From assembly GCA_027603945.1 (NCBI GenBank), contig JADIIU010000176.1, forward strand, positions 1 through 22,414: 22,414 nucleotides of DNA. The letters are read 5' to 3'. The stretch is from Terramyces sp. JEL0728. Its lineage: Eukaryota; Chytridiomycota; Chytridiomycetes; Rhizophydiales; Terramycetaceae. The first letter of the stretch is position 1. Every line of letters starts with the position of its first letter. Below the pieces are notes generated by a model. It saw only the letters and a list, made by a program, of their open reading frames with translations, was not told the DNA's origin and did no database searches. Shown in pieces: positions 1,183 through 22,414 of the stretch. The position numbers and the translations under genes are program-made.

Positions 1183-3054
1183 ATGGTAGGGAATATTGGC
1201 TGCGGTGGCGCGTCGGACCAAAGAGCAAAAGTAAAGAGAATTTCACTCCAAATGAACGAATTCGATCAATTATTTGAGCTAGCAGATCAGCACAAGGAGG
1301 GCGAACTAGACTTTGAAGACCTCAAATCCTTATTCACTAAAATCAACTTTTACCCAAACCAACTCCATCTCCATACCCAATTCAGTGCAATTGCAAAAAA
1401 CAAGAGTAAAATCAACAAGGAAGAGTTCAAATCACTAGTGGCACAGTTCAGACAAAAGCCGTTCTTTATTGAATTGTACAAGCAGCTTTGTAAAGCTAAA
1501 TCCGCCAGTAAATGGACCGACTCGACATTTACTAATTTATACAATCAAATCACTGAGCGTATCCAGCATTTGTGGTACCATGATGACGAGCCAGATAGCA
1601 ACTTGGAAAAAGCGCAATTTTGCGATTTTCTTGAAGTTCAAGGAGAATCTGAAGCATTTATTTCCGACTTTCTTCAAAAACATGCTATTGGTACTCACGT
1701 CCCCTATAGTGTCTTTTTGGAATACTTTGAAAATGACGAAAATCGATTGTACAGTCATGATCACCGATCTCGTGCATTGGATGGGTCAAAGCCTATCCAA
1801 GAGCACTTTATTAATTCTTCGCACAACTCTTATTTGATGGGCAATCAGTTGACCAGCCATTCTTCCACCAAGAGCTATGAAAATGTCCTTTCTAAAGGGG
1901 CAAGGTTTTTAATGTTAATTTAGATGTGTTGAATTGGATTGCTGGGACGGCAAGAATGGGCCAATCATCAAGCATGGGTTCACCCTAACTACTGAAATTA
2001 CTTTTGAGTCAGCAATTGAAACAATCAGCTCTCATGCTTTCCTTAACTCTGATTTTCCGTTGATCTTGTCGCTAGAAATTCACTGTGGGGTACAAGGGCA
2101 GCAAAAAATGATTGGTATCATGAAAAGCGTATTTGGAGAACAGCTGGCAAAGTATAACGAAACCGCTACGCTTGATGAACTCAAAGGCAAGATCTTGCTG
2201 CAGGCTAAAGCCATCGAAAAAGATGAAATTACCCAAAAAGATGAAAAGCATTATGGAATCTCAAAGGAATTATCTGAATTTGTGTATCAAATAGTCAAGC
2301 CATCCAAACACACTGCTGATTTTACCAATGTGTTGCCTCACGAACTGGTAAACATTTCTGAAGGCAATATTAAACACATTCTTGAAAAACATCCAGATCA
2401 AGTATTGCAAGCATCAAAAAGATCTTGTATCCGCGTATATCCGGAAGGCACACGCGTAAATTCGTCAAACTTGAATCCACTAAAATACTGGCAATTCCAG
2501 ATTCAAATGCCGTCACTAAATTTCCAAAACTTTGACTCGCACTTGCAAATTAATCGAGGATTCTACCGCCAATTCCAAAATTGTGGATATGTAGTTTTAT
2601 GTTGATGTAGGTACCTAAACAAGTTCGGTCTTGCAAAAAGACTGTTAAAGTTCAAGTGTTGCAAGGGTACCGGATCCCACACCATTTCGACAATTCACTT
2701 GTGGTTGATCCTTATGTATGTGTAGAATTAATCACACCAACAAAAGATCGGCATCTAGTTCACCATGAAAAGTATGAAACAGAAAAGGTATCTCACAACG
2801 GGTTCAACCCAGTGTTCCAGAATTTTGAAGCTGTAGAAACCTTGAAATTCTCCACAGTTGTTGAAAGCGACTTGTCATTCATCCAGTTTAGCGTCAGGGA
2901 TAAGAGAGAATTTAAAGAACTTTTGTGTGAAAGTGTCGTTCCTGTCCATTGCCTTTGTAGTGGATATAGGGTTGTATCCATGTTTGATCTGCACGGCGAT
3001 AGACTGGATTGGACTTATTTGGTGGTCAATGTCAAAGTAACTGACTTGGAATAA
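1183..3054 (+). CDS. Phosphoinositide-specific phospholipase C, PH-less
   Basis: Exons 1183-1904, 1924-2590, 2611-3054, joined across introns of 19 and 20 bp (phases 2 and 0), give 610 aa. The enzyme cleaves PI(4,5)P2 into diacylglycerol and IP3 at the inner plasma membrane. Order: EF-hand-like region (about 20-190), X domain (about 203-340), short linker, Y domain (about 425-470), C2 domain (C-terminal 130). The catalytic set of the PLC-delta family is visible: H214 and N215 (SSHNSYL), E244 and D246 (CVELDCWDG), H258 (IIKHGFT), E292 (LSLEIHC). The first splice restores GAR-CVELDC and the second GY-VPKQ. There is no PH domain before the EF-hands, unlike PLC-delta of animals and yeast Plc1 and more like plant PLC or PLC-zeta, so membrane targeting must come from C2 or partners. 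Start: first ATG of the frame, followed by a glycine/cysteine-rich N-terminus. Confidence 0.93.
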
Positions 3055-3055
3055 A
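3050..3055 (+). terminator. Poly(A) signal AATAAA spanning the PLC stop codon
   Basis: The last sense codon GAA and the stop TAA (3052-3054) together with the next base form AATAAA, so the 3' UTR should be only a few tens of bases. The 250 bp that follow, up to the convergent 7TM gene, contain nothing else I recognise. Confidence 0.5.
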
Positions 3056-3291
3056 GTATGTTTTTCCCCAGAAATTTTTCTTTTGCTAAATTAAGAGCGA
3101 TTCTGGTTGCAATATAAGCGCGAAAATTCTTTTTTTGTGGAAACATGTTTTTAAAGCAAAACTGATCCAAATTGGATATCTATACCTGAAAGTATACGCA
3201 ATCTATAATTCATCTAAGCGGCATGCATCACTGGTTACAAACCAATGTATCTCAAACTGTATTGAAATAATACAATATATTCTATCACAGA

Positions 3292-3297
3292 TTTATT
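3292..3297 (-). terminator. Poly(A) signal AATAAA 8 nt after the 7TM stop codon
   Basis: The minus strand reads AATAAA just downstream of the TGA at 3308-3306. It is a close but non-overlapping example of the signal-at-stop arrangement of this window. Confidence 0.45.
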
Positions 3298-3305
3298 AAT
3301 TCAAA

Positions 3306-4182
3306 TCAACTTTTGTCCACCGTACTTTTGGCACCAGAGTTCAGTTTGGAATCAGCAGTAGACCTTGCAGTGTGGTTGCCAGTCTTTTGACTAGTTCTAG
3401 CACCAGGTGGTTTCATGGCAATAATCAACGAAACAAGGACAATCTGTACCATTATTTCGTAGACGCAAAACGTTGTAGCGATAATTGGTCCGCCGACTTG
3501 CAAACAGTAAGGAATAAACAAGCCAAGTTTTACCGCAATCAGAACTATGGAAAACACAACACCTTTTTTGCCAACATCTTTTACCACTTCACTCTTTGGT
3601 CTGAATACGTTAACCGCCATTGAAATTCCCTACATTCAGAACACAAATACCATCGCGATTAGGTAGACAATTTTAACCAAAGTGCTGGCAACAGAAACAG
3701 TTGGGTTTTGGGTAGTCAGACAGATACCAGTGCCATCGCCAAAATTAACCCAAGTAAAAGACATTGTCGCCTACATGAACAAAACTTACCCAGTTGACAA
3801 TATGTGCGAGGACATTCATGATACAAAAAGCTCCAAGCCAGCCGTATTGGTACATCTTTTGTCTACTGGATGGAAGAATCAAAGCAACAACGATGCTGGT
3901 CAAGATAAAATCAGTGCAGATATCTTGAAAAGTCCACAACAAAGCAGTGACTACATTGACTGCGCAACCAAGGTTACTCAACGACAGAGTAAATAAACAG
4001 ATAATGGAGTAAAGCATCCCAAACACCGTGCATCCATACTGTAAAAGCGTCATTCTTTTCAAATTGAAGCCTTTTGACTGGATTGTATGTGCGATACCAG
4101 CTACACCAGCGCAGAATGTAATACCGAGAGCAAATACATAGTAGTATACTTGGGAAATAGGATACCCTAGATAAGTTAGCAT
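3306..4182 (-). CDS. Orphan seven-transmembrane protein
   Basis: Exons on the minus strand 4182-3790, 3770-3651, 3629-3306, with introns 3771-3789 (19 bp) and 3630-3650 (21 bp), both phase 0, give 278 aa. Seven hydrophobic segments are visible in order: around residues 12-33, 43-65, 76-100, 112-137, 162-182, 197-220 and 222-248. They are followed by a polar, Ser/Thr/Lys-rich tail of about 30 residues. The short N-terminus, compact loops and long polar tail recall a receptor-like 7TM topology with the tail in the cytoplasm. I see no DRY/NPxxY, retinal-lysine, PQ-loop or Pth11/CFEM signature, so the family is not assigned. Without the two splices the gene would appear as two unrelated membrane ORFs. 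The junction logic rests on frame continuity and hydrophobicity, weaker support than in conserved genes. It is transcribed away from PIG-A. Confidence 0.72.
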
Positions 4183-4858
4183 GGCTTTAGCAAAAAAGTA
4201 ATGAAATTTTGGCGATTTCCATTCTCGTTCTGATTGGCTAAGCTTAATGATGAGGTCATACTGGCAGTTCGCGTAATTAATTGGCCTGAAGAAGCATCTG
4301 CGGGTAATACACAGTCAAAAGCTTAAGAGGGCCAGTGCCGCTATAACTGGCTGAGGAGATTTAGCTTGAATCCAGCACCAGACCAGATGGCTACTTTTAG
4401 AACAGCAGGCTAAACAAATATTTTGGTGAGCAAGTATATCATGATCAATTGGAAGATTGAGGGGCTCTATTCAAAATATTTCGTTAAATTGTGGATGATT
4501 CGAGCAAATCTCACAAGATTTAAGCTTGGCATTGCCGACAATCTTGGCAAATGGAGCTGAGAATATGCAATTTAAATGTATTTGATTCTCTAGAAAAGCT
4601 TTAATCGTATATTCGCGATCTATTACCCAAAATAGCGCGTAATTATAGCAGAATTCACTATTCCAAATCAAATGAACAATAAGATTCAATTTCAGAAAAG
4701 GTTATTTCAAGAGTACATTCCAGCTGTGAGATCCCCGAATCAAGCAGCGATATACCAAATAAATCGACATTTCACGTTTGGTAATTACAACAGCAGCTCC
4801 TACTTTCAATTATTTCTATTTGCAAAAAACATTTTTTCTTTAAATCTGGATTCTGCAA
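4183..4858. other. Divergent intergenic region, largest gap of the window
   Basis: The region lies between the start codons of the 7TM gene (-) and PIG-A (+), 676 bp, and must hold both promoters. It contains a perfect 6-bp inverted repeat GCCAGT/ACTGGC with a 9-nt loop at 4331-4351, and a 69-codon ORF from an ATG at 4672 that would overlap the PIG-A start out of frame. I find no tRNA (no B-box-like TTCGANNC in a cloverleaf) and no convincing C/D or H/ACA snoRNA. No clear TATA box is seen near either start. Confidence 0.5.
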
Positions 4859-6222
4859 ATGAACATTTGCTTCGTCTCTGATTTCTTTTACCCGAACGTT
4901 GGAGGAGTAGAAGCTCACATGTACAACTTATCAAAGCAATTGATCAAGCGAGGACATAAAGTAGTAATAATCACTCATTCATACGGAAAGCGGTATTTTT
5001 CAATAACAGCAGAAAAGGAATTAAATACCTCACATCGCAAGTAAAAGTATACTACCTCCCACACTGGTTAGTAACTGATCAAGTATCGCTTCCAACCATA
5101 TTTTCAACTTTACCGCTTTTCAGATCAATAATTATCAGGGAGAATATAGATATTATACATGGAGTAGTTGTATTTAATGTAGCATGCCGCATTCTCTTCG
5201 ATGTGTCATGAAGCGATATTGCATGCGAAAACAATGGGGATAAAAGCGATATTCACCGATCATTCGCTATTTGGATTTGAGGATACAAGCTCCATTCTAA
5301 CTAACAAGCTACTTAAATTCACGCTGTCGGATGTAGATCATGTGATATGTGTTAGTCATACAAGTAAAGAAAATACAGTGCTGAGAGCGTCGCTAAACCC
5401 GCGCGATGTTTCCGTTATACCAAATGCGATTGTCAGTGCTGAATACCAGCCAGACCCAAATTTAAAAAATGATAAGAGTAAGAACAAAGTAACCTAGTCA
5501 ATATTATTGTGAATTGTAGATTAGTGTACAGAAAAGGAATAGATTTGCTGGTATTGGTGATTCCTAGGATATGTCAAGCGTATCCAAATGTAAATTTTAT
5601 TATATCTGGCGATGGACCGAAAAGGCTGGAGCTGGAACAAATGCGCGAACATTTTATACTACAGGATAGAGTGTTTTTGCTGGGAAGGACGGAGCAGAGT
5701 AAAGTACGTGATGTACTGGTCCAGGGCCACATTTTTCTCAATACCTCACTAACAGAAGCATTTTGTATCGCTATAGTGGAAGCGGCTTCGTGCGGACTGA
5801 TAGTAGTATCAACAAAAGTAGGCGGGATACCAGAAGTGCTTCCAGACGAAATGATTTTAATGGGAGCTCCCGACCCAGATTCAATCATTAGTGCACTAGA
5901 AAAAGCAATGAAAAAAGTAGAAAATAACGAAATTGATCGACATGATTTTCACGGACAAGTGAAGGAAATGTACAGCTGGCAGAACGTTGCTGAAAGAACT
6001 GAAATGGTTTACGAAAGAGTGTTGGAAATGGATAATCTACCGCTGCACGAACGATTGCTAAGGTATAATGGATGCGGCGTGTTTGCTGGAAAACTGTCGG
6101 TCATGATAATGGTTGTAAATTACATGTTTTTAAAAGTCCTTGAGTGGCTTATACCTATTGATACGATTGACGCAGCACCAAGATTTGATTCAGAGCTATT
6201 CAAAGAGCATTCAAATAAATGA
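4859..6222 (+). CDS. GPI3: PIG-A/GPI3, catalytic subunit of GPI-GlcNAc transferase
   Basis: Exons 4859-4992, 5013-5163, 5183-5477, 5498-6222, with introns of 20, 19 and 20 bp (phases 2, 0, 1), give 434 aa; yeast and human proteins are slightly longer. The enzyme transfers GlcNAc from UDP-GlcNAc to phosphatidylinositol on the cytosolic face of the ER, the first step of GPI-anchor synthesis. Family hallmarks: N-terminal [15 protein letters not shown], the segment [43 protein letters not shown], and the GT-B family 4 E-x7-E pair E280/E288 in [18 protein letters not shown] hydrophobic stretch near residues 390-416 is the expected single C-terminal membrane anchor. Each splice restores homology: SYGKR-KGIKYL, IIHG-HAAFSSM, NDK-INIIV. 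The start fits the short N-terminus of fungal homologues. The AATAAA at 6214-6219 lies directly before the TGA. Confidence 0.96.
6214..6219 (+). terminator. Poly(A) signal AATAAA abutting the GPI3 stop codon
   Basis: The last two sense codons (Asn-Lys) spell AATAAA, followed at once by the stop TGA. Only 100 bp separate this from the next ATG. Confidence 0.45.
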
Positions 6223-6321
6223 ATTGAACTTTTTTCCTTTTTAGCTTCCCGTTCTGGATGTGTCTGTTTTTTTGTGGCGCGAATCATTCCAAAATTGGCC
6301 TGAAAGAAAAGTTTGTGGGAG

Positions 6322-8000
6322 ATGGAGAAAAACACCATCGTATATCAGCAAGTAAACCAGAAAGCTTCTGTCGTGCGTGTAATCGGTTGCTAATTTAGCC
6401 CAAGCGACGATGGATTTGGGCAATTTTGCTCCTGATCGCCATAGTTACAAGTATCACTGTCCTTGTACTCCAATATTCATCAGCAGCATCAAGTCGCCCG
6501 AGACTAGAAACGGTAAAGAAAGTAGGTGCAAGCTCTAATTTGGCACTGAAGCTTACTGACAAGATTGCAATTGTTGGTGGTGGACCTGCCGGGTTGCATT
6601 TCGCATCGCTATTAGCAAAACAGGGCTTCAAAGATGTCACATTATTGGAAACTAGCTCTCACGTTGGAGGAAAAAGCTTGACTGTTTTGGACAATGAAGG
6701 AATTCCGCATGAGATGGGTACTTGCTACTTGTCCTCTGTCTACGATAACGTCCGATCACTCTTGGCTGAATACGATCCAACTAACCAGCTGATTGATATT
6801 ACTCACCGCCATGCTACTTTTGATGAAGTGCTTGGATCCGACATTCAAACTCCATCTAGATCAGATTCAGACCCCGCTGATGGAATGGACCTTTCGCTTT
6901 GGTACATCAACGAAATGTACATTGATAATGCTGCAGATCCAGCTAAAACACCAACTGATAACTTGGTAGCTGCGTTTCAAAAGTATATCGGTGTCCATTT
7001 GAAGCTGTTTGGTAATTACAGCTATGGGCTGCCTCCAAAACCGGCTGATTTCAAGGCTATTAACATGACTGCGATCGAGTTTTTGCAGAATAACGGGCTA
7101 ATGGCTCTTGAAGGGTTGTTGCGGTACGCACAGCAAACTCAGGGCTACGGTGTATTAGAAGATGTGCCTGCGTTTTACATGTTGTGGTGGATCCATCCAG
7201 AGCTATTGGTTCGCACTTTGGAGGGGTATGCTGTCCAGATGCTGTCGAAAGGGTTTCAGCATTTATGGCAAAGCGTGTACGAAAAGCATAAAAAGGATGT
7301 CAATTTCGTATTCAATGCAAGAGTGAAATCTATTAGTCGTGGGTTGGATGGTAGCAAGCCAACTATTACGTATGGACATGATGAAAAAACTGTTCATTTT
7401 GATAGGTTGGTAATGGCAGTTGATTTATCTACTCACCTGGGACTGATTAGTGATTTGACTGCAGAAGAAAAAACCTTATTTTCAGGCTACACCTCGTCAG
7501 TCTTGACTACTACCTTGTACGAATCTGACAAAGGAGTAGTTGAATATCCAATTGAATATTGGTTCAAAAGAATGACTCGCAATCCTCCTGGTGGAGTCCA
7601 AGGTAGACTGTACGCTCAAAGAAATTCCAAGCTTGCATTATTTGGCACGTTTAACAATGTAACAAACACTTGGAATGCAAGTGGCCGACAAAAGCGAATC
7701 GGCTACCAGTACCTCGGTAGACCAATGCAAAAGAACGACTCTAAAACAATGCTTGGGTTGTTGAAAACTGACTTGGTAACTGAAACTGACTTGAACGCGG
7801 AAATTATCCTCCAAAAACCGCATCGGTATTTCCCTCGTTTTGGCACAGATGGTATTTTGGCCGGTAAGCCGTGGGGTATCGTTGATATTCAAGGCAAATC
7901 CAATACACTATGGATTGGCAGCTCGGTATGTTTCGAGAGTGTGTTGGATGTAATGACGTACAATACAAACTTGTTTTCGCGGTTGCAAATATCCAAATAA
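6322..8000 (+). CDS. Membrane-anchored FAD-dependent amine-oxidase-like protein
   Basis: Exons 6322-6378 and 6399-8000, intron 6379-6398 (20 bp, phase 0, ending GCTAATTTAG), give 552 aa. The long frame has a stop just upstream and no usable ATG; the short first exon supplies one (MEKNTIVYQQ...), and the intron matches the size and branch motif of the others. Residues 24-45 are a hydrophobic signal anchor after a basic PKRR. The FAD-binding Rossmann motif follows, IVGGGPAGLHFASLL (about 77-91) with the acidic end LLE, then HVGGKSLT, a variant of the GG motif. The C-terminal GKPWGIVDIQGKSNTLWIGSS closes the flavoprotein fold. Substrate unknown: polyamine, monoamine or prenylcysteine-type are all possible. 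The body probably faces the ER lumen or outside if it is a type II protein. Its stop lies inside AATAAA (7996-8001). Confidence 0.85.
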
Positions 8001-8001
8001 A
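7996..8001 (+). terminator. Poly(A) signal AATAAA containing the amine-oxidase stop codon
   Basis: The TAA at 7998-8000 is embedded in AATAAA. The following 208 bp up to the SNF2 start contain no gene that I can support. Confidence 0.5.
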
Positions 8002-8208
8002 GCGCTTGTCATTCAATTAGTTCTTTGTTGTGGATACCCGTAGTGATTTTACGAGTAATTGAAAACGTTGGATGTTTCTTGTTTTTCAAACTCAAAAAAT
8101 TTGTTCGAACACTGCAATCATGTTTAGTCCAGACCCAGCACCAGATTTGAAATTCAAAAGTAAACGGGACTAATAGTAGAAAAACCAATTCAACAAGCGG
8201 GCTATGGA

Positions 8209-10669
8209 ATGTCTGCGCAACAGAGTGATCCATCGCTGAACAGTAATGAAACCAATCCAGTGCCCAATCCATCTATTCGCCAACAAGAAATAGCAGAACC
8301 GGATAACAGTGCTCAAAAGACAAAAGGAGGTAGTTGGAAGCTGCATGGAAAAACTGACAGTCACCAACCATGGGAACGAAATTCTCAGCAAAAGAAACAA
8401 CCTACCAAAAATACTGTCAATTCAACTGATAAATATTCAAATATATCATCTGATACTGGAAATCCGAAATGGGAAAAGTCCAAATACCTTTCAAACCTTC
8501 AATCAACAGCACACTCTAATTCCAATGCAGTAATCAAAGGGAATAATAAACAAGTCGAATTCAAGACCCGCAAAACTAGTCAACAAAATCTAGCAGAGTC
8601 AAAAAACGCAAACAATCCCTTTGGACACAATTCAACTGTTAAGCAAACTGGCCCTGCTGTGCCAAAAAAACAATCTACTATCAACGATTATTATACCACA
8701 ATGCACCATTATCGAAATTCGCAGCAAAAGAAATCCGGAAATTCGTCAACCCCAATCAAACATACCCAGAATATTCCTCCTAGGACGCCTGACAGTAAAC
8801 TTCAAACTCCGATGAAAGGCACTCCAATCTTTGTTCCAAACAATGAACAGTTTGCCATACATCCCGTCCACTCTCCATATTGGAAGAAAAAGACCAACGT
8901 CTACAACAAGCACGCTGTAACAAATATCCGACTCAATGAACAGATATACAAACCTCCTATGTTTCAACCATACGCATCCCAAAACCTTACCACCACCAAG
9001 AAACCTGGCAAAGAAAAAGACTTGATACTGGATATGATAAAAAAGATATCGGAAAAAATTGATTATCAGAACGTAAAAGTGCCTGAAATGCAAACAGAAT
9101 TGAGACCGTACCAACTCGAAGGATTAGGCTGGTTGAAAACCCGTGAAATCGACTGTAACGGAGGGATATTAGCTGATGATATGGGGCTTGGTAAAACTGT
9201 ATCAATGATTGCACTAATGTCTTCCACCAGGAAAAAGACTTTGATTATTGTGCCATTACCTGTTCTTGACCAATGGGAAAAAGAAATAAGGACAAAGGGC
9301 CCACCATTTCAAATAGCGAAATTCCAAGGCGCTAATCGCAGATCATTGTTTCCAAACTTTGGCAAATTTGATTTAGTAATCACAACATACAATGTAATTG
9401 TCAAGGAATTTTCTGCAGATGGTATACAAACCAGTCCAATTTTTACCACTCCTTGGGGGAGAGTTATCCTGGATGAAGCGCATCTGATCTGCAATAGCAC
9501 AACAAAATCCGCTCAAGCGTGTTTCAGTCTTCAAGCTGAAAAAAGGTGGTGCTTGTCAGGAACACTTATTCAAAACAAGATTGAAGATTTATTCAGCTAC
9601 TTTCATTTTATCAACAGAAAAGATTATGGAGACCTAAGTAACTTGCATTAACCCTAGAAATATTCAAGGACATGTACATTGCTAGGTTTGATTTGACGCG
9701 AAAGGAAGCGCTGCAAAAATTTCATCTATTGTTCAAAACCTATGTATTAAGGAGAACCAAGGATGCTGCAGATATTATTACGCTGCCGCCAATTAATATT
9801 AACACAACCTTTCTGGAGTTTAGCAAAGAGGAACGTAGCGACTATAATCGAGTTGTAGATGTTTACAAGGAAAAGATCAAAGATTTGCAATTTGAGGGCA
9901 AGTCTCAGGTTAGTCAAGCATTGGTGCTCTTAATGCGCACCAAACAAGTATGTGTGAACAAGGAAATGGTCCAGCATATCTTTGATGGAGATGGTGATAA
10001 AGAAGTGAAAATCGGCTCTGTTGACGATGATTGGGAGGACGATTTGGTGGCCATGATGAAAAGCGTCAAAATTGAAACTAGTTTCGAGTCTACTAAATTC
10101 CGAACGGTAACCAATACTAACGTAGGCAGTGGACATTGTTAAGCATTATAACGCACAAGGATCTAAAACTATTATCTTTTCCCAATTTACCACTGCCTTG
10201 AATTTACTTAGGGTTAGTTTAGAGAAACAGGGTTTAAAGTATGCTCATTTGGATGGGAAAATGAATGCTAAACAGCGGACTGCACAAATCTCAAAGTTTG
10301 AGAGCGATAGTGACTGCGGAGTGCTATTAGCTTCGCTCAAGTGTGCATCCACTGGACTAAACTTGACTATGGCATCAAATGTAATATTATTGGATTTATG
10401 GTGGAACCCAGCGATCCAAGGTGCATTTTGCTAATATAGAACAAGCATACGGGAGAGTACATCGGATGGGCCAAACTAAGCCGGTCAACGTCCACATACT
10501 AGTAATGAAAGACTCGGTCGAAGATCTCATACTAAAAATACAAGAAAAGAAATCCAATCTTGTCAAATCGGCATTTGGAGAAAACAAGATGGACAAAATG
10601 TCTGCAAGCGATATTTTCAGTATTTTCAACATCCCGTATATTCCACAAAATAAAAACAGTTTATTGTAA
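8209..10669 (+). CDS. SNF2-family ATPase of the Rad5/Rad16 group, no RING finger
   Basis: Exons 8209-9637, 9658-10106, 10126-10420, 10440-10669, with introns of 20, 19 and 19 bp (phases 1, 0, 1), give 800 aa. It is a nuclear DNA translocase, likely in repair or chromatin remodelling. Residues 1-280 are polar, Asn/Gln/Ser/Lys-rich and probably disordered, with a canonical PIP box QSTINDYY at 155-162. Helicase motifs: DDMGLGKT (I), LDEAH (II), LSGTLIQNK (III), then the C-terminal lobe TIIFSQF, LDGKMNAKQR, STGLNLTMAS, WWNPAIQEQAYGRVHRMGQTKPV. The DEAH box, LSGTLIQNK and WWNPAIQEQA favour Rad5/Rad16/TTF2 over Snf2/Chd. Rad5 and Rad16 carry a RING between the lobes; here exon 2 has no Cys/His array, so TTF2-like is possible. 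Splices restore GDL-KIF, FRT-AVDIVKHY and PAIQ-EQAYGR. Start: first in-frame ATG; another ATG at 8204 is out of frame. Confidence 0.93.
10649..10654 (+). terminator. Poly(A) signal AATAAA inside the last SNF2 codons
   Basis: AATAAA encodes Asn-Lys, ending 12 nt before the stop codon TAA at 10667-10669. It forms a near-palindrome with the opposite-strand signal of CFAP206 at 10660-10665. Confidence 0.4.
10660..10665 (-). terminator. Poly(A) signal AATAAA overlapping the CFAP206 stop codon, minus strand
   Basis: On the minus strand CAA-TAA followed by A gives AATAAA. It lies within the coding end of the convergent SNF2 gene, so both 3' ends share one element of about 20 bp. Confidence 0.5.
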
Positions 10670-12922
10670 AGCAGTTGGTTTCTTTGGTGTTTTTATCAAC
10701 GGCGGTAATCCGTAAGCTCCACCGCCATACGGAACTGGACCTCCCTCCAAGTCAATACTAAGATCTATAACTTTAAAGTGGTGTTTTCGATCGGCTAACG
10801 GTGTCTGATACATGTTTCTTTTAATAGGTACGACCCCATTGCGCAATCCAGCCAAATAATGCTTTGTCCTTGGCACTCCCGTGCTATTAGCCCTCGTAGT
10901 CTGCACAAAATTATTCCTAAATAAAAAATGAATTACTTTGGTGCATAATGCTGAGTTTCTGAATCTCTTCTGAAATGCGAACTGTCGGTCTGGCAAGAAT
11001 GTGTTCTCTTGTCTTTTAAATTCGCCAGCATCAAGGCTTCTCTCCGCATATCCCATTCATTCCATTTATAATTAGGCTTGATGTAGGAATCGACTATATG
11101 TGTATCTACCTGACAGCCTGCCTCAGCGACAATTGGCATTTGTCCGAGTAGCTGCTGTCTAGAGTACGACTGTGCCTTTTCCAGTGTATCGACAGTCGGA
11201 AAGAATTTGTATAAATGCAGCAGCTGTACAAATGGCGGTCTGAGTTTGGAAAGTTGGATAATTTCGTCAACGTACCTATGTTAATTCAACTCACTGATCT
11301 GGCTGCTTAAAGAACTCTACGGCAGCCGGGATAGTTTCGAATGCTAATAGTCTGTCCTTGTATCTGACCATACCAATATTTTTATCACCTGGAACAACTA
11401 AACCATCTCTACTAACTAGTGCATATGGGCAAAACCCACCAAATTCGACTGGGAGTTGGTAATACATTGTAGTGTTTCCTGGGTGTACAACTTCAACATT
11501 CTTTGTAATCATACCTAAAGCTGTCATTGTCTGCGTTGCTTTTTGAATAACTTCATGTTCTAAGTAAGTTTTGATTATACCATCTGAAATTTCAGGTTCG
11601 ATATCAGTCATAAATGGCTCTGATAATGTAACTGCAATGTCAGGCACAATAATGTCAAATGATGTTGCTGATTGTACAAGCGTGTTGAGTATGCCTCTTC
11701 TGAACGACAAGTAGAAGACTTGGTCGAACCACGAAGACCAAAACGTAGCCAAAGATATAAATAATGGCTACATTAACCGGCTTTTACGTAAACTTGGTCC
11801 ACTGGAACAGCTGTTTTTGATCTGCAGGCAAATTTCAAATCTTTGAGCGCTTGATCATACCGGTTTGTTAGCTTTTGCAAAATTTGTTGAGAACTGCCAA
11901 CTTGTTCCTGAAGTGCATCCAAGTAAATCAAATACTGTCTATTGAACACAAGTCCATGGTTTAATAATTGTTCCAGCTCTTCTGAAACTTCGGAATTCGG
12001 GGTTTTCTTTCTGTAATCTAGCGCAGCCTTGTACAGTTGAATCTTTGTCTCACAGTCCTGCATTTCAGAGCGCACCAAGAGACTAAGATCTCTCCACTCG
12101 CCTTGGCAAATATCAGGCAGATTTTCGATAGTCTCCCCTCCCTTTTCCAAATTTTTGTTGAATAGTCTGATTCCGGTAACTAAATTTGTCAATCCAAGTA
12201 ATTGCTGCTCTTTTTCTAGTCGTGGAAGCGAAATAAATGTGCTTAACTCGCTATTTGGAAATACAGATTCCAGAGCAGCTGAAATGAGTTTAATGTACCT
12301 GTTGCCTCTCTGATTACACGCATGTCCGTTGGAACGCCAATATTACTTTTCAGTAAAACATACGACACTATCTTCCTGTTCAGCGCTTCAAAAGCTGGAA
12401 TAGTTTTTTGCCGGGAATCAATAATCTCTCTTAGTAATGTGGAACACTGTTCATTCTTGGTTGCCTTTTCCAACTTCAAGAAATAATCTTGTTAGCGCTG
12501 GAATACCTTGCGCAGCAAAATGCGTATCGAAATACACCTGCACCCTAACTGTTTCCATTTCAGGGTCGTTCGTGGATGTAATTTTCTTTATGCATATCTT
12601 GTTAACACTACCTTACGTTTATTAGCCTGTCGACTTCTTCTTTTGGTAAATCAACTGCGATATTGAAATGGTTTGAAGGATCCAGGACTACGGCGCGTAC
12701 CATGAATGCCGCCAGCGTATCAGTTACTTGGTATGGCTTCACTGCTGATTGAATTCCACCAGCGAAAAACTTTGATACTCCATTACTGTCATTACTTTCA
12801 CTATTTTCATCAGATTTTGTTCCAAGAGCAGGCTCTATGAATTTGGTTTTCAATATATCTGTCGACGATGTGACTATTTCTTTAATTATTACTTTTATGA
12901 CATCCTCAGAGGTGCTGGCCAT
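10661..12922 (-). CDS. CFAP206: CFAP206 (FAP206), radial spoke/axoneme protein
   Basis: Seven exons on the minus strand: 12922-12617, 12597-12507, 12487-12299, 12278-11788, 11767-11295, 11275-10937, 10916-10661. Six introns of 19, 19, 20, 20, 19 and 20 bp (phases 0, 1, 1, 0, 2, 2) give 714 aa, somewhat longer than the human protein (about 620). CFAP206 anchors radial spoke 2 and nearby dynein to the doublet microtubules of motile 9+2 axonemes. Recognised stretches: LTNLVTGIRLFNKN, KTAVPVDQVYPLFISLA, FGGFCPYALVSRDGLVVPGDKNIGMVRYKD, and the family's C-terminal block WNEWDMRREALMLANL...THSCQTDSSHFRR...TQHYAPK, then KHYLAGLRNG. The last 50 residues are Pro/Gly-rich and unconserved. The two first introns end in AAG rather than TAG or CAG. 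The presence of this gene implies a flagellated stage. Its 3' end overlaps that of the SNF2 gene by 9 bp. Confidence 0.95.
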
Positions 12923-13096
12923 TTCTACGTGTCAAAGTTTTTGAAAGGTTGACGTAATTGCCTTTGAGCAGTTTACCTTGCTATTAGTAATGCAGAGTAA
13001 ATGCTCCTTGGCATTCGTATCGCAAAACGTTACAGTTCTCTCTCGGTAATTAGAGGCATCAAAACAAATTAAAAACACAGTGTTTTATCATGAGAT

Positions 13097-14579
13097 TTAA
13101 ATTTGAACAGCAGCGACCTCGTGCAAGTACCCAGCAAGCAACTTGATACCTTGGAGATAATTGGACTTGTCAAGTTTTTCATTGATAGAGTGAGCGCCAT
13201 CGTCACCTCTGCCCATTGGCAACAACAAAACGCTCTTCTTCAAAGCTTCTTGGAATGTAAGAGTAACTGGAATAGAACCACCTTCTCTAGTAAGATCTGG
13301 TTTAACGCCGTGGACTTTTTCGGTTGCCTTTGATGCAGCAGCAAAGTTCCAGTTGTTGACATCAGCAACCCACCATTTTCCAGCGTGTTTACATTGAATA
13401 GTAATCTTGTTTTTGCTCTTCAATTTTGCGAATTCAGACTGAACATATTCAGATACTAGTCTTGTGATTTCTTCTGGCTTTTGGTTTGGCACAGTTCTGA
13501 TACTGAATTTGCCAACAACTACTATTAGGATTAAATACCTTTAGCTGGAATTACAGTCTTTTCACCAGAAGAGTAGAAAGCTCCCTCGACACCGTGCAAT
13601 GAAAGGGACGGGAATCTCCATCTTGCCATCAACGCATCCTTTTCAACGGTAGAAATGGTGTTTTCAGCAGCAATTGCATTGTAAATATCCTTCATATCAA
13701 AGTCCAACGATTTGTAAATTTCATGTTCTTGCTCAGTAACTGGTGCGACAGAGTCCATCAGTCCAGGAATGAGGATCTTTCCATCTGGTGAAACCAACTT
13801 GGAAAACAAGTGGGCCAGATCAATCATAGGTTCATGAACAGTGCCTCCGAAAACTCCAGAGTGCAAATCTCTCCCAGGTCCAGAGATTGCCAGATGGAAG
13901 TAAGATACCCCACGCAAACCATAAGTCAAACATGGTTTAGTAGTTCCTAACCAGTAGTTGTCTGAAATGCATACGCAATCGACATCCTTAAAGTATTTGT
14001 CTGAATTAATTCAAGTTACCGGCTTCAGCATGAATCAATTCATCTAATCCTTCAGAGCCAGATTCCTCCATTCCTTCAAAGCACATTTTCAAATTGACTG
14101 GGAATTCTAATCCCAACTTTTGGTGTAGTTCGATAACATGCAACCAGCTGATAACTGGACCTTTGTCATCGCTGGAACCTCTCCCGTTCAATCTTCCTTG
14201 TTCGTCTTCTCTTAAAATGAATGGATCGCTAATTAAAATCAGAGTACCTGGTCCATCCATCAGATTCGAATGCTGGTTGCACGTCGTAGTGCCCATAAAC
14301 CAAAACAGTCTTTTTCTTTGGATCAGTGCCGTAAGTAGCCAAGACCACAGGTGGTAAATCAATGACTTGTCCTTCAAGGGTTTGCTTTCCTACTTCACGC
14401 ATTGAAACAGAAGCACCCAATTTCTTCAATTCGGTTTCCAACCATTGACCCATCTTGCGGACATGAGGACGATGTTCAGCGGTCCCGGATACGGAAGGGA
14501 TTGCTACTACTTCAGCAAGCTTCTTAATGTAATGAGATTCATTGCTATCAACGAATTGAGAGATTTTTTCGTAAGTCAT
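13097..14579 (-). CDS. DUG1: M20 metallodipeptidase, Dug1/CNDP2 type
   Basis: Exons on the minus strand 14579-14248, 14228-14020, 14000-13539, 13518-13097, with introns of 19, 19 and 20 bp (phases 2, 1, 1), give 474 aa, the usual length of Dug1/CNDP2. These cytosolic di-metal (Zn/Mn) enzymes hydrolyse Cys-Gly and other dipeptides and take part in glutathione breakdown. Metal and catalytic residues are present: H97 and D99 in GHYDVQP, D in [10 protein letters not shown], the Glu pair in [11 protein letters not shown] in [11 protein letters not shown], and the C-terminal His in [13 protein letters not shown]. The lid-domain signature [23 protein letters not shown] is intact. Splices restore DGWT-SDPFIL, AEAG to ADKYF, and [11 protein letters not shown]. 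The start MTYEKISQF is the conserved position; longer reading into the upstream gap adds nothing conserved. No AATAAA at its stop; ATAAAA lies 9 nt downstream. Confidence 0.96.
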
Positions 14580-14846
14580 TAAAAAAGGAAAATTAAAGAT
14601 TGCGTGACCAGTTGGGCAATGCCACAACCTCTAGGTCTAATTAAACAGAGTTGCTCTTGCCCAACGTTCCCAAATTCCGTAGTAGCCACCAGTGCACATT
14701 AATTGCCCTTGCAGTCCTGGTTGTCGAGGAATGTAGCCAATTGTCCTTCCAGCCAAAATAATGCAATCGACCGGTCGAGTTACACAATAAACTTGATAGC
14801 CCAACCATTTTGTCCGAAAAACAAAGTTGTCCAAAATCTTGAATCT

Positions 14847-17800
14847 ATGGAAAAACAAAAAAAGGAAACAGATTTCAAAGCAATTCAGAAACGAGATGAA
14901 ATTGATGAAAAGATGGGCTTCCCCCGCTTCGTAGAAGGGGAAAAGAGGCTAGGTTGGCTTGTTAACATCAACGATACCATTGTTGATACAGGTGTAGATA
15001 AGGATGGATCAGCTGGTGTAGATCTATACTTTTTGCAAAACGATGGCAGCTCTTTCAAGGCAACAGTCATTTATCAGCCGTACTTTTACGTCCTTGCCAA
15101 AGATGGATTCATTGGCGATGTTGAAGAATTCCTTCGACGTAAATTCGAGAAAAAGATTTCACTATTAGAATTGGTTCACTTGGACGACTTGGATTTGGTA
15201 ATCGTTGCTTTATTTAGAAAAACCACTTGACCGGTAACAAGAGGAAAGCGCTGAAGCTCTCATTTCATAACAATGTACAGTTCCGCCAAGTCAAGCAATT
15301 CCTTTCTCCACTGGTAAATAGCAAGAAGGAAGGGACGGAAGCAATTGACCAAATCACTGGGCTGCGAGAGTATGATTTAATGTACTACACTCGAGGTAAA
15401 TTTATTTAATTCAGTGACCATTGATAGAGATCTGCGTGTTGGATTGTGGTATAACGTGGAACCAAAGCAAGGAGTAATCACAATTGAGCCGCGACCAGAC
15501 ATAGTTACCAGGGCTGACCCCGTTGTGCTTGCGTTTGATATTGAAACAACCAAACTGCCACTAAAGTTTCCAGATTCCGCAATTGATTCAATAATGATGA
15601 TCTCCTATATGATTGACGGCCAAGTAGCTATTATTAATACAGGGGTATTTGATTACAAACAGAGATATCGTGTCTCAAGACATTGAAGATTTTGAATTTA
15701 CCCCAAAGCCCGAATACCAGGGATCATTCACCATTTTTAACGAAGACAATGAAGTAGGACTACTAAAACGATTCTTTGAACATATCCAGCAGGCGAAACC
15801 CCATATATTTGCAACGTATAACGGGGATTTCTTTGATTGGCCGTTTATCGAAGCAAGAGCTACTTTGCATAGCATCGACATGTATGAAGAAATTGGATTC
15901 TGTAAAAACAACAGCGGAGAATATCTTTCTAGTTACGCCAGTCACATGGACTGCTTCTGCTGGGTAAAAAGAGACTCTTATCTTCCTCAAGGAAGTCAAA
16001 ACCTGAAAGCTGTAGCTACTTACAAATTAGGGTATAATCCAGTTGAATTGGATCCCGAAGATATGACTCGGTACGCTGCTGAAAAACCGCAAATCCTTTC
16101 GCAATACTCGGTTTCCGATGCCGTAGCTACGTATTATCTCTACATGAAATACGTGAATCCTTTTACTTTTTCGCTCTGCAATATTATTCCTATGCATCCG
16201 GATGACGTGCTGCGTAGAGGCAGTGGCACTCTCTGTGAGCATCTATTGATGGTGCAGGCGTTTAAAGCCAATGTTTTGATGCCAAACAAACATGTTGACA
16301 AGGGAGGAAACTTTTTTGATGGCCATTTATTAAACAGCGAAACCTATGTTGGCGGCCATGTAGAAGCTCTTGAAGCAGGTGTATTTCGTAGTGATTTCCC
16401 AACAAAATTCAAATTGTCAAGTGAAGGATTCCAATCATTAATCGATGAGATTGACAACGCACTAAAGTTCAGTATAGAAAAAGAGGGAAAGATTGACTTG
16501 AAGAATGTGCTGAACTATGATGAAGTGCGAGCCGATATTGTTAAAGAATTAGAAAATCTGCGTGATCATCCAAACAGAACAGAAACTCCATCAATTTACC
16601 ATTTGGATGTTGGCGCAATGTACCCGAATATTATCCTCACGAATCGTTTGCAACCTGATGCGATTGTAACCGACAAGACCTGTGCCTCATGCGACTTTAA
16701 TCAAGGCGAAAACAGCACCTGTCAAAGAAAGATGCCATGGTCTTGGCGAGGTGAATATTTTTTATCATCTAAAGGTATACCAAACTTACATCAGGCGAAT
16801 ACAATATGTTGAAAAACCAGCTCGAACAAGAAAAGATTCAAGTAAAGGAAGAATACAAGTCATTCCACGAATTGCCGCATTTTGAGCAAGATTCTTTCCT
16901 GAAAAAGAGAATGTCAGAGTACACTCGCAAGGTTTACGGGAAAACATATGAAACCAAAGTTGTTGAAAAGGAATCCATCGTTTGTCAAAGAGAAAACCCT
17001 TTCTATGTCAACACTGTACGTAATTTCCGTGACAGGAGATACGAATATAAAGCACTTTTAAAGTCATGGAAAAAGAAACTGGAACAGGCAATAGGTAGTG
17101 GTGATGCTGCTAAAATCGATGAAGGTAATATTCTCTTTTAAATCAGCATCGAAAATGACCGTTATTTTTGATTCGCTGCAGACTGCGCACAAGTGTATCT
17201 TGAACTCATTTTATGGATATGTAATGCGCAAAGGTGCGCGATGGTACAGTATGGAAATGGCTGGAATTGTATGTTTGACTGGTGCAAAAATTATCCAGCT
17301 GGCTAGATCAAGAGTCGAGCAAATTGGACGTCCGCTTGAATTGGATACCGATGGTATTTGGTGTATGCTTCCGAAATCATTTCCAGAAAATTTTACTTTT
17401 AAACTGCAAGGTGACAAGTCATACTTTATTTCCTATCCCTGTGTCATGCTGAACCATCTTGTTCATGACAAGTTTACCAACGATCAATATCAAGATCTTG
17501 TCGACGAAAAAACTTTTGAATACCAAATCAAGAAAGAAAACTCTATATTTTTTGAAGTAATCGCTGTGTAATATTAGGTCGACGGCCCATATAAAGCCAT
17601 GATTCTTCCAGCGTCAACAGAGCAAGACAAGCTGCTTAAAAAGAGATATGCTGTTTTCAACCATGACGGAAGTTTAGCAGAGCTGAAAGGGTTTGAATTG
17701 AAAAGAAGAGGAGAGCTGAAGCTGATCAAGAATTTCCAAAGCAGTATTTTCAAAGTGTTTTTGGAAGGTGACGACTTGAATGATTGCTACAAGCAGGTAG

Positions 17801-21364: not shown

Positions 21365-21709
21365 TTAGTCATAATACCATTGCGTCATTCCACTAAGCAT
21401 TTTCCTTCTTTCATATCTGAATCACGGGCTCACCATCCAAATATTTGCTTTTAATTTCATCTCTATGGGAACCACTCAATTAAAAACGTGAACACCAAGA
21501 TAAACACACTTTTTCTTTCTCTGTCCAACGATTTCTAGTTGATAGTGATAATATTTTTGGGGTTTCCAGGTTGTGCTGGATCGGGGCTTTGAATCGGGCT
21601 CTTTGATTGGAGTTTTACAGGGGCCTGGACAAAAGCTTACGAGCAAGTGACAAATAACTCACAAATGATATAAAAGCATCCGGCTAGAAGAGACGCTATC
21701 AAAACAAAG
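21365..21709 (+). promoter_or_regulatory. Upstream region of the secreted globin-like gene, with TATA and inverted CCAAT
   Basis: TATAAAA lies at 21669-21675, 35 bp before the ATG at 21710, and ATTGG (CCAAT on the other strand) at 21606-21610. Near it an imperfect direct repeat, GGGCTTTGAAT then GGGCTCTTTGATT, spans about 21584-21608. No other gene of the window has so clear a TATA box, which fits strong or stage-specific expression. No ORF or RNA gene is seen here. Confidence 0.5.
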
Positions 21710-22414
21710 ATGTTTATATCTGCAAAGGTCACTCTCCTACTCTTAATTACTCCATTTACTGCCGCACAGCAGCAATCTTTGTGTGATAAATACACTACTG
21801 CTCTCTTCAAGGACAACACCGAAGATAACCAACTGAAGCTGCTTACAACTCTTGTTAACCGTGTTGTTGGGGGTAACTTTACGGCAACTCCAAACAACCA
21901 GCCGGTTACTGGAATTTTGGTCAAGGGAACTATTAATGGTGAGCCAGTGGATATGCTTCCAAAGTTTATTGGTACATCTGGCCCTACCACTAACATCAAC
22001 GGCGTTGCTACCGCTGGAATCAACTTTTTGGACGGCGGTGGTGCTGATGCTCTCAAGAAAGGTCTCCCTGCGAGCGACCCTAATACCAGGCAATTCAAAT
22101 TGCTCACTCACTTGTACGGTGTCTTTGGTTCTCTGACTGGCTGTTCCAAGATGGGCGGATCTGTATTCCCAAACTATGCTGGAAACCCTTCAATGACAGA
22201 TACTCACAGATTCATGAACATCAACAAACCAACATTGGACTTTTTCATTGACCAAGTTGGACAAGCTGCAATCTCTCTCGGTGTTACTAAAGACGATGCT
22301 ACCGCTGTTGGTGGTGCATTAAATGCCTTATTCAATACTCAATGTGCAAAGCCAACCCAACTGACTCCTCAATCTCAGCCATTACCTCAAGGTTTCTGCT
22401 TTGGATCTGGTTGC
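21710..22414 (+). CDS. Secreted truncated-haemoglobin-like protein, 5' part (cut by right edge)
   Basis: The frame is open from the ATG to the end of the window, 235 codons, no stop reached. Residues 1-19 are a clear signal peptide (basic Lys6, LLLLI core, cleavage near FTAA-QQQ). The mature part has cysteines at 25, 145, 212, 230 and 235 and a Pro/Gln-rich stretch from about 214. Residues 128-210 follow the helix E to H pattern of truncated haemoglobins: a helix ending in Gly (KLLTHLYGVFG), then Y-x-G-x-x-S-M-x3-H-x-F-M-N-I with H166 in the position of the proximal haem ligand, then FFIDQVGQAAISLGVTKDD. Whether haem is bound is not shown. Codons favour GGT, GCT, ACT, AAC and AAG, suggesting high expression. 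It could instead belong to an unrelated secreted helical family. Intron presence cannot be excluded beyond the edge. Confidence 0.6.
   Translation, partial: MFISAKVTLLLLITPFTAAQQQSLCDKYTTALFKDNTEDNQLKLLTTLVNRVVGGNFTATPNNQPVTGILVKGTINGEPVDMLPKFIGTSGPTTNINGVATAGINFLDGGGADALKKGLPASDPNTRQFKLLTHLYGVFGSLTGCSKMGGSVFPNYAGNPSMTDTHRFMNINKPTLDFFIDQVGQAAISLGVTKDDATAVGGALNALFNTQCAKPTQLTPQSQPLPQGFCFGSGC

Follow-up and report, generated by a model that had tools for sequence, protein, structure and literature searches.

Genomes whose standard introns are ultra-short have already been published. In the nucleomorphs of the chlorarachniophytes Bigelowiella natans and Lotharella oceanica, relic nuclei of 0.37–0.61 Mb with about 950–1,000 introns, GT-AG introns of 18–24 nt, mostly 18–23 bp, are found together with rare GC-AG ones (PMC4035089). 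The heterotrich ciliate Stentor coeruleus has introns of 15–16 nt with the branch A at position 10–11 and without a strong branch consensus (PMC9505925), the mikrocytid Mikrocytos mackini has 224 introns of 16–17 nt and a highly reduced spliceosome (PMC10245619), and Paramecium has introns of 25–45 bp (PMC5014332). The subject of this study is a set of 26 GT..AG segments of 19–22 nt on contig C176, which was analyzed over its whole length of 22,414 bp (hereafter the window) and belongs to a genome of 15.0 Mb in 231 contigs. The original prediction, which described these segments as ultra-short spliceosomal introns, cited nucleomorphs and some ciliates as precedents; both are indeed published, but that list was too short, mikrocytids being a further case. 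Because the nucleomorph, mikrocytid and Stentor introns were already known, the lineage studied here joins them as an additional one. The observation of 26 tiny GT..AG introns was confirmed. Their best explanation, to which we assign a probability of roughly 0.95, is that they are spliceosomal introns of the ordinary U2 type, reduced to a near-fixed 19–22 nt, and that they form the standard class of a nuclear genome. This reading is based on the interruption of conserved proteins, the dominance of the same class in a sample of the genome, shared motifs, and the presence of U2 and of four spliceosomal proteins.

All 26 segments were found to be GT..AG on the coding strand, with the lengths that had been claimed (12 of 19 nt, 11 of 20 nt, two of 21 nt and one of 22 nt). 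As also predicted, they interrupt eight genes, encoding a phospholipase C (PLC), a membrane protein, PIG-A, an amine oxidase, a SNF2-family ATPase, FAP206, DUG1 and DNA polymerase epsilon, all of which are open-framed once the segments are taken out. They are given below together with a 27th intron proposed by a gene model.

1905..1923, + strand: 19-nt intron, PI-PLC; GT..AG; joins GA to RCVELDCWDG; no gap against PLC-gamma2
2591..2610, + strand: 20-nt intron, PI-PLC; GT..AG; frame restored; alignment gap adjoins junction
3630..3650, − strand: 21-nt intron, membrane protein; GT..AG; open frame on removal; protein without Pfam match
3771..3789, − strand: 19-nt intron, membrane protein; GT..AG; open frame on removal
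4993..5012, + strand: 20-nt intron, PIG-A; GT..AG; within Pfam PIGA stretch 40–129 (profile 1–90)
5164..5182, + strand: 19-nt intron, PIG-A; GT..AG; within Pfam PIGA stretch
5478..5497, + strand: 20-nt intron, PIG-A; GT..AG; frame restored
6379..6398, + strand: 20-nt intron, amine oxidase; GT..AG; frame restored
8160..8179, + strand: likely 20-nt intron, SNF2-family; from the gene model; ATG at 8120 leads into SNF2 frame
9638..9657, + strand: 20-nt intron, SNF2-family; GT..AG; no gap in RAD5 alignment
10107..10125, + strand: 19-nt intron, SNF2-family, the example of the original prediction; sequence unique in genome; no gap in RAD5 alignment
10421..10439, + strand: 19-nt intron, SNF2-family, GTG donor; joins WNPAIQ to EQAYGRVHRMGQ, no gap (RAD5); missed by gene model
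10917..10936, − strand: 20-nt intron, FAP206; no gap in CFAP206 alignment
11276..11294, − strand: 19-nt intron, FAP206; no gap in CFAP206 alignment
11768..11787, − strand: 20-nt intron, FAP206; no gap within 5 residues; one gap 7 residues upstream
12279..12298, − strand: 20-nt intron, FAP206; no gap in CFAP206 alignment
12488..12506, − strand: 19-nt intron, FAP206; GT..AG; frame restored
12598..12616, − strand: 19-nt intron, FAP206; GT..AG; frame restored; chosen by the 12–25 model, 12586–12616 chosen by the 12–60 model
13519..13538, − strand: 20-nt intron, DUG1; no gap against cytosolic non-specific dipeptidase
14001..14019, − strand: 19-nt intron, DUG1; no gap against cytosolic non-specific dipeptidase
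14229..14247, − strand: 19-nt intron, DUG1; no gap within 5 residues against cytosolic non-specific dipeptidase
15198..15217, + strand: 20-nt intron, DNA polymerase epsilon; no gap against Pol epsilon catalytic subunit
15396..15414, + strand: 19-nt intron, DNA polymerase epsilon; no gap against Pol epsilon catalytic subunit
15624..15642, + strand: 19-nt intron, DNA polymerase epsilon; 16 joined residues identical to solved protein
16775..16794, + strand: 20-nt intron, DNA polymerase epsilon; no gap against Pol epsilon catalytic subunit
17125..17146, + strand: 22-nt intron, DNA polymerase epsilon; no gap against Pol epsilon catalytic subunit
17557..17577, + strand: 21-nt intron, DNA polymerase epsilon; 12 joined residues, no gap against Pol epsilon catalytic subunit

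Junctions were judged by eye in alignments to proteins of the PDB, requiring that no gap lie within 5 residues of the junction. The statement that removal restores known sequence exactly held for 17 of the 18 junctions covered and failed at PLC 2591–2610, where a gap adjoins the junction. By gene, gap-free junctions numbered six of six in polymerase epsilon (POL2) and three of three in DUG1, two of the proteins proposed for such a comparison, three of three listed in the SNF2-family gene, four of four covered in FAP206 and one of two in PLC. The other 8 of the 26 junctions fell outside the PDB alignments (membrane protein, 2; PIG-A, 3; amine oxidase, 1; FAP206, 2); two of those in PIG-A lie inside the Pfam PIGA stretch, in which 90 residues correspond to 90 profile positions. 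Outside the window, the Prp8 gene has six predicted introns of 19–22 nt, three of which (22, 21 and 21 nt) lie within a 580-residue alignment to solved Prp8 that contains no gap, the remaining three being outside that alignment piece. When introns were retained one at a time, a stop appeared within 1–20 codons for 21 of 21 introns in six genes; the SNF2-family and membrane-protein genes, which hold the other 6 of the 27 introns and stood outside this count, have an open frame after intron removal. The intron at 8160–8179, sequence GTAAACGGGACTAATAGTAG, found no support from homology, and is modelled as a likely additional intron of the SNF2-family gene.

To look beyond the window, the 20 largest contigs were sampled over their first 10 kb each (the sample; 200 kb, 1.3% of the genome). 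With the window excluded and no training on splice motifs, GT..AG gaps joining two long open frames were compared with gaps bounded by nine decoy dinucleotide pairs. At 19 nt, 41 GT..AG joins were counted versus a decoy mean of 25.6 and maximum of 30; at 20 nt, 82 versus 31.8 and 44; and at 21 nt, 16 versus 4.9 and 8. Among the other lengths listed from 10 to 70 nt, 15 nt alone exceeded the decoy maximum (7 versus 6). Window and sample together (222 kb) were then run through a gene model whose length prior was flat from 12 to 60 nt and which carried weights for splice sites and branch; it predicted 322 introns, 295 of them in the sample, versus 7 of any length on the reversed sequence. Lengths of 19, 20, 21, 22 and 23 nt accounted for 72, 143, 42, 19 and 3 introns, respectively, that is, for 279 of the 322, and the rest comprised three of 18 nt, one of 15 nt, one of 24 nt and 38 longer than 24 nt. 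The length distribution that the original prediction had proposed to plot for the whole assembly thus has, in this 1.3% of the genome, its mode at 20 nt, with most predictions in the narrow range of 19–23 nt. As the decoy dinucleotides and the reversed sequence show, the 26 segments exceed chance, and the claim that ultra-short spliceosomal introns are the standard class is supported both in the window and in the sample. If the density of 295 introns per 200 kb held throughout the 15 Mb, the genome would contain about 22,000, a rough figure extrapolated from the starts of contigs.

The anatomy of the class was analyzed in 283 predicted introns of 18–24 nt. They share a GTA start, a YAG finish and a near-fixed branch spacing: A directly follows GT in 81–100% of introns at each length from 19 to 22 nt, a YTRAY branch motif is present in 220 of 283, and of these 220, 107 have the branch A 5 nt before the final G and 96 have it 6 nt before. 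The branch A of YTRAY introns is mostly at position 14 in 19-nt introns, at 14 or 15 in 20-nt introns, mostly at 15 in 21-nt introns and mostly at 16 in 22-nt introns. The interior has a G+C content of 25%, and at the three positions ahead of the donor A (42%), A (55%) and G (49%) are the commonest bases. Insertions introduced by sequencing or assembly and disrupting the reading frames would be expected neither to start with GT and end with AG on the gene strand while sharing a branch motif at near-fixed spacing, nor to give 322 introns forward versus 7 on the reversed sequence, nor to produce a length peak that decoy dinucleotides lack; nothing was found in favour of this explanation, which we regard as next to negligible.

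Coding sequence was also examined for intron-like strings, using 113 predicted genes (137,529 nt) and 100 synonymous shuffles. Exonic strings of the form GT..NTRAY..YAG with lengths of 22–25 nt that are not multiples of 3 occurred once, versus 17.9 in shuffles; a TG-donor control of the same lengths gave 17 versus 22.8, and controls with the branch or the acceptor reversed gave observed/shuffle ratios of 0.81 and 1.04, respectively. Elsewhere the ratios were 0.50 at 14–17 nt, 0.58 at 19–20 nt and 0.67–0.85 above 25 nt. The TG-donor ratio was 0.59–0.86 throughout, so that some of the avoidance concerns the branch-plus-AG tail as such. Strict matches of 21 nt were found six times in exons versus 1.0 in shuffles; here the model probably overlooked real introns, ones that lack an in-frame stop. 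The pattern suggests that accidental tiny introns are purged from exons.

The four core spliceosomal proteins sought (Prp8, U2AF65, SF1 and Slu7) were all found. Prp8 spans the solved Prp8 nearly end to end (2309 amino acids, the N-terminal end being cut by the fetched stretch), and U2AF65 scores 334 bits once spliced, above the family cut-off, versus 251.7 bits unspliced; SF1 is the branch-point protein. A loss of 3′-end factors had been considered and was dropped, since the searches showed the opposite, Slu7 and U2AF65 being present. Among the small nuclear RNAs (snRNAs) sought, U1, U2 and U6, U2 is present at 140 bits and carries GUGUAGUAUCUG, the canonical branch-pairing stretch, with which the YTRAY motif is able to pair.

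Several observations weigh against the reading of these segments as a standard class of U2-type introns. The sample consists of contig starts only, and the splice-site weights of the gene model were seeded from the 26 introns of the window before being re-estimated, which makes the model less independent than the decoy test. Within the window, the 12–60 model missed 2 of the 26 introns and added three (8160–8179, 12586–12616 and 14679–14714), and a 12–25 model missed one and added two (6465–6483 and 8160–8179), recoveries thus being 24 and 25 of 26. With splice-site and branch weights and lengths allowed to 600 nt, 20, 17 and 17 of 26 were recovered over three rounds; a flat-length model without splice-site weights was rejected, as false long introns bridged genes and 8 of 26 were recovered. 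Exonic avoidance, moreover, is strongest at 22–25 nt, slightly above most intron lengths, and this bin was chosen out of nine after the data had been seen.

The predictions above 24 nt belong to the same account. The original prediction held that no longer intron is needed; this stands for the genes that it described in the window, but in window and sample 28 of 38 longer predictions have no same-frame alternative of 17–24 nt (10 of the 38 have one). The tiny introns could accordingly be one class of two, the other being longer introns of the ordinary kind, substantial in number and under-counted by the sample, and some long predictions are plausible, such as L024:7144-7177 with its T-rich end. 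Yet among the lengths listed from 22 to 70 nt none exceeds the decoy maximum (30 nt equals it), and under nearly the same length prior the model scores 6846.7 with introns of 26–600 nt versus 7587.6 with 12–600 nt. The tiny version also won in the three genes checked by homology: in Slu7, 21 nt was favoured over a predicted 54 nt; in SF1, a 21-nt intron with a GC donor over a predicted 36 nt (both cases lying outside the 38); and in a Scc3-like gene, 20 nt over 35 nt, by comparison with a human sequence. The SF1 intron, at L037:1173-1208 on the minus strand, is likely GC-AG, since taking out 21 nt brings the protein back into agreement with solved BBP and SF1; its donor was picked by eye, the automated listing offering only a 15-nt GT version. 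A substantial longer class therefore appears quite improbable to us; some longer introns may occur in the genome.

Two of the long predictions have a composite structure. The 40-nt intron at L014:2386-2425 (− strand) consists of two abutting 20-nt GT..AG units with no exon between them, which may reflect an exon of zero length or the doubling of a single intron. The 44-nt intron at L027:8121-8164 consists of units of 21 and 20 nt flanking CAA, possibly a 3-nt micro-exon.

Also weighing on the negative side, U1 was not found in the genome by covariance-model, pattern or DNA searches, and U6 was not found either, its covariance-model search giving false matches only and its pattern and DNA searches nothing snRNA-like, all run without positive controls. 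Two covariance-model matches to U6 were weak, near-identical repeats (L035 and L036, on C199 and C111) and not U6, and none of the three U6-pattern and three U1-pattern matches inspected was snRNA-like. Possible reasons are that the RNAs have diverged, that U6 contains an intron or that the assembly has gaps. The failure to find U1 and U6, with U12 not searched for, leaves some place for removal by other means than the major spliceosome, be it U12-type or tRNA-endonuclease-like processing, self-splicing or translational bypass. Such means are nevertheless very improbable, given the GT-AG ends, the YTRAY motif able to pair with the canonical U2 stretch, and the presence of Prp8, SF1, U2AF65 and Slu7. 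Self-splicing introns as short as 19–22 nt are not known.

Returning to the U2-type reading, we infer from the sequence that these tiny introns are spliced, and a plausible course of events can be outlined. The short 5′ site would be read by U1 and then by U6, U2 would pair with the YTRAY motif, and branching would generate a loop of about 14–16 nt with a tail of 5–6 nt. With branch A and AG a near-fixed distance apart, this spacing may serve as a 3′ ruler in place of a pyrimidine tract. Because so few bases separate the branch motif from AG, there is no room for such a tract and U2AF65 would have to act elsewhere, by binding the U-rich bases that precede the branch or by working via protein contacts. 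A retained intron would bring a stop within about 20 codons, and the transcript might be removed by mRNA surveillance.

Compared with the described systems, the class resembles that of chlorarachniophyte nucleomorphs in its GT-AG ends, narrow short range, many introns per genome and rare GC-AG, and differs in belonging to a 15 Mb genome with 295 introns predicted in the 200 kb sample. It shares with Stentor coeruleus (PMC9505925) a near-fixed length, a GU start, a 5-nt tail past the branch A and AU-richness, but here lengths are 19–22 nt, the branch A is mostly at 14–16, and YTRAY occurs in 220 of 283. Narrow, extremely short introns with conserved motifs are common to Mikrocytos mackini (PMC10245619), whereas here 322 introns are predicted in 222 kb and SF1, U2AF65, Slu7 and Prp8 are kept. 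As in Paramecium and other short-intron ciliates (PMC5014332), length is constrained and retained introns carry in-frame stops, though introns of 19–22 nt lie below the 25–45 bp of Paramecium. The present case stands apart in uniting a 15 Mb genome and numerous introns with a clear branch motif and with SF1, U2AF65, Slu7 and Prp8 all retained.

The FAP206 gene (10669–12922, six listed introns) encodes a cilia- and flagella-associated protein, which suggests that the host is flagellated. A dynein heavy chain was seen among the sample genes, and could equally be cytoplasmic. The fungal lineage spoken of in the original prediction is an assumption. Tentatively, and with the odds running against it, the host may be a flagellated fungal relative, either a zoosporic fungus or an aphelid, in which nearly all of some 20,000 introns would have shrunk independently to 19–22 nt while the spliceosome stayed otherwise complete, including U2AF65 and SF1, with U1 and U6 too diverged for standard models and with spacing, not a pyrimidine tract, setting the 3′ end. 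Introns of 19–22 nt in fungi or aphelids were not encountered in the literature at the level of titles and abstract openings, and a 2022 aphelid genome paper may already report them.

Other features were noted in passing. Two small proteins encoded next to each other in the window, at 1–228 and 367–1047, have tails that contain Cys and His and resemble each other; they may be a tandem pair. The protein at 21709–22414 looks secreted, has no match in Pfam and runs off the end of the contig. A scan of 40 sample exons showed an Integrator subunit 2 domain (PF14750).

Work on the lower limit of intron size has drawn on a relic nucleus, giant ciliates and a parasite that is strongly reduced. At about 20 nt, the introns described here come close to the shortest known. 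The 15 Mb genome, the flagellar gene and the presence of SF1, U2AF65, Slu7 and Prp8 together indicate that neither extreme genome reduction nor loss of these factors would be needed to approach that limit, and a gene caller that requires introns of about 30 or more would get most of the intron-containing genes in such a genome wrong. The lineage would thus be a new one for studying the lower bound on intron length.

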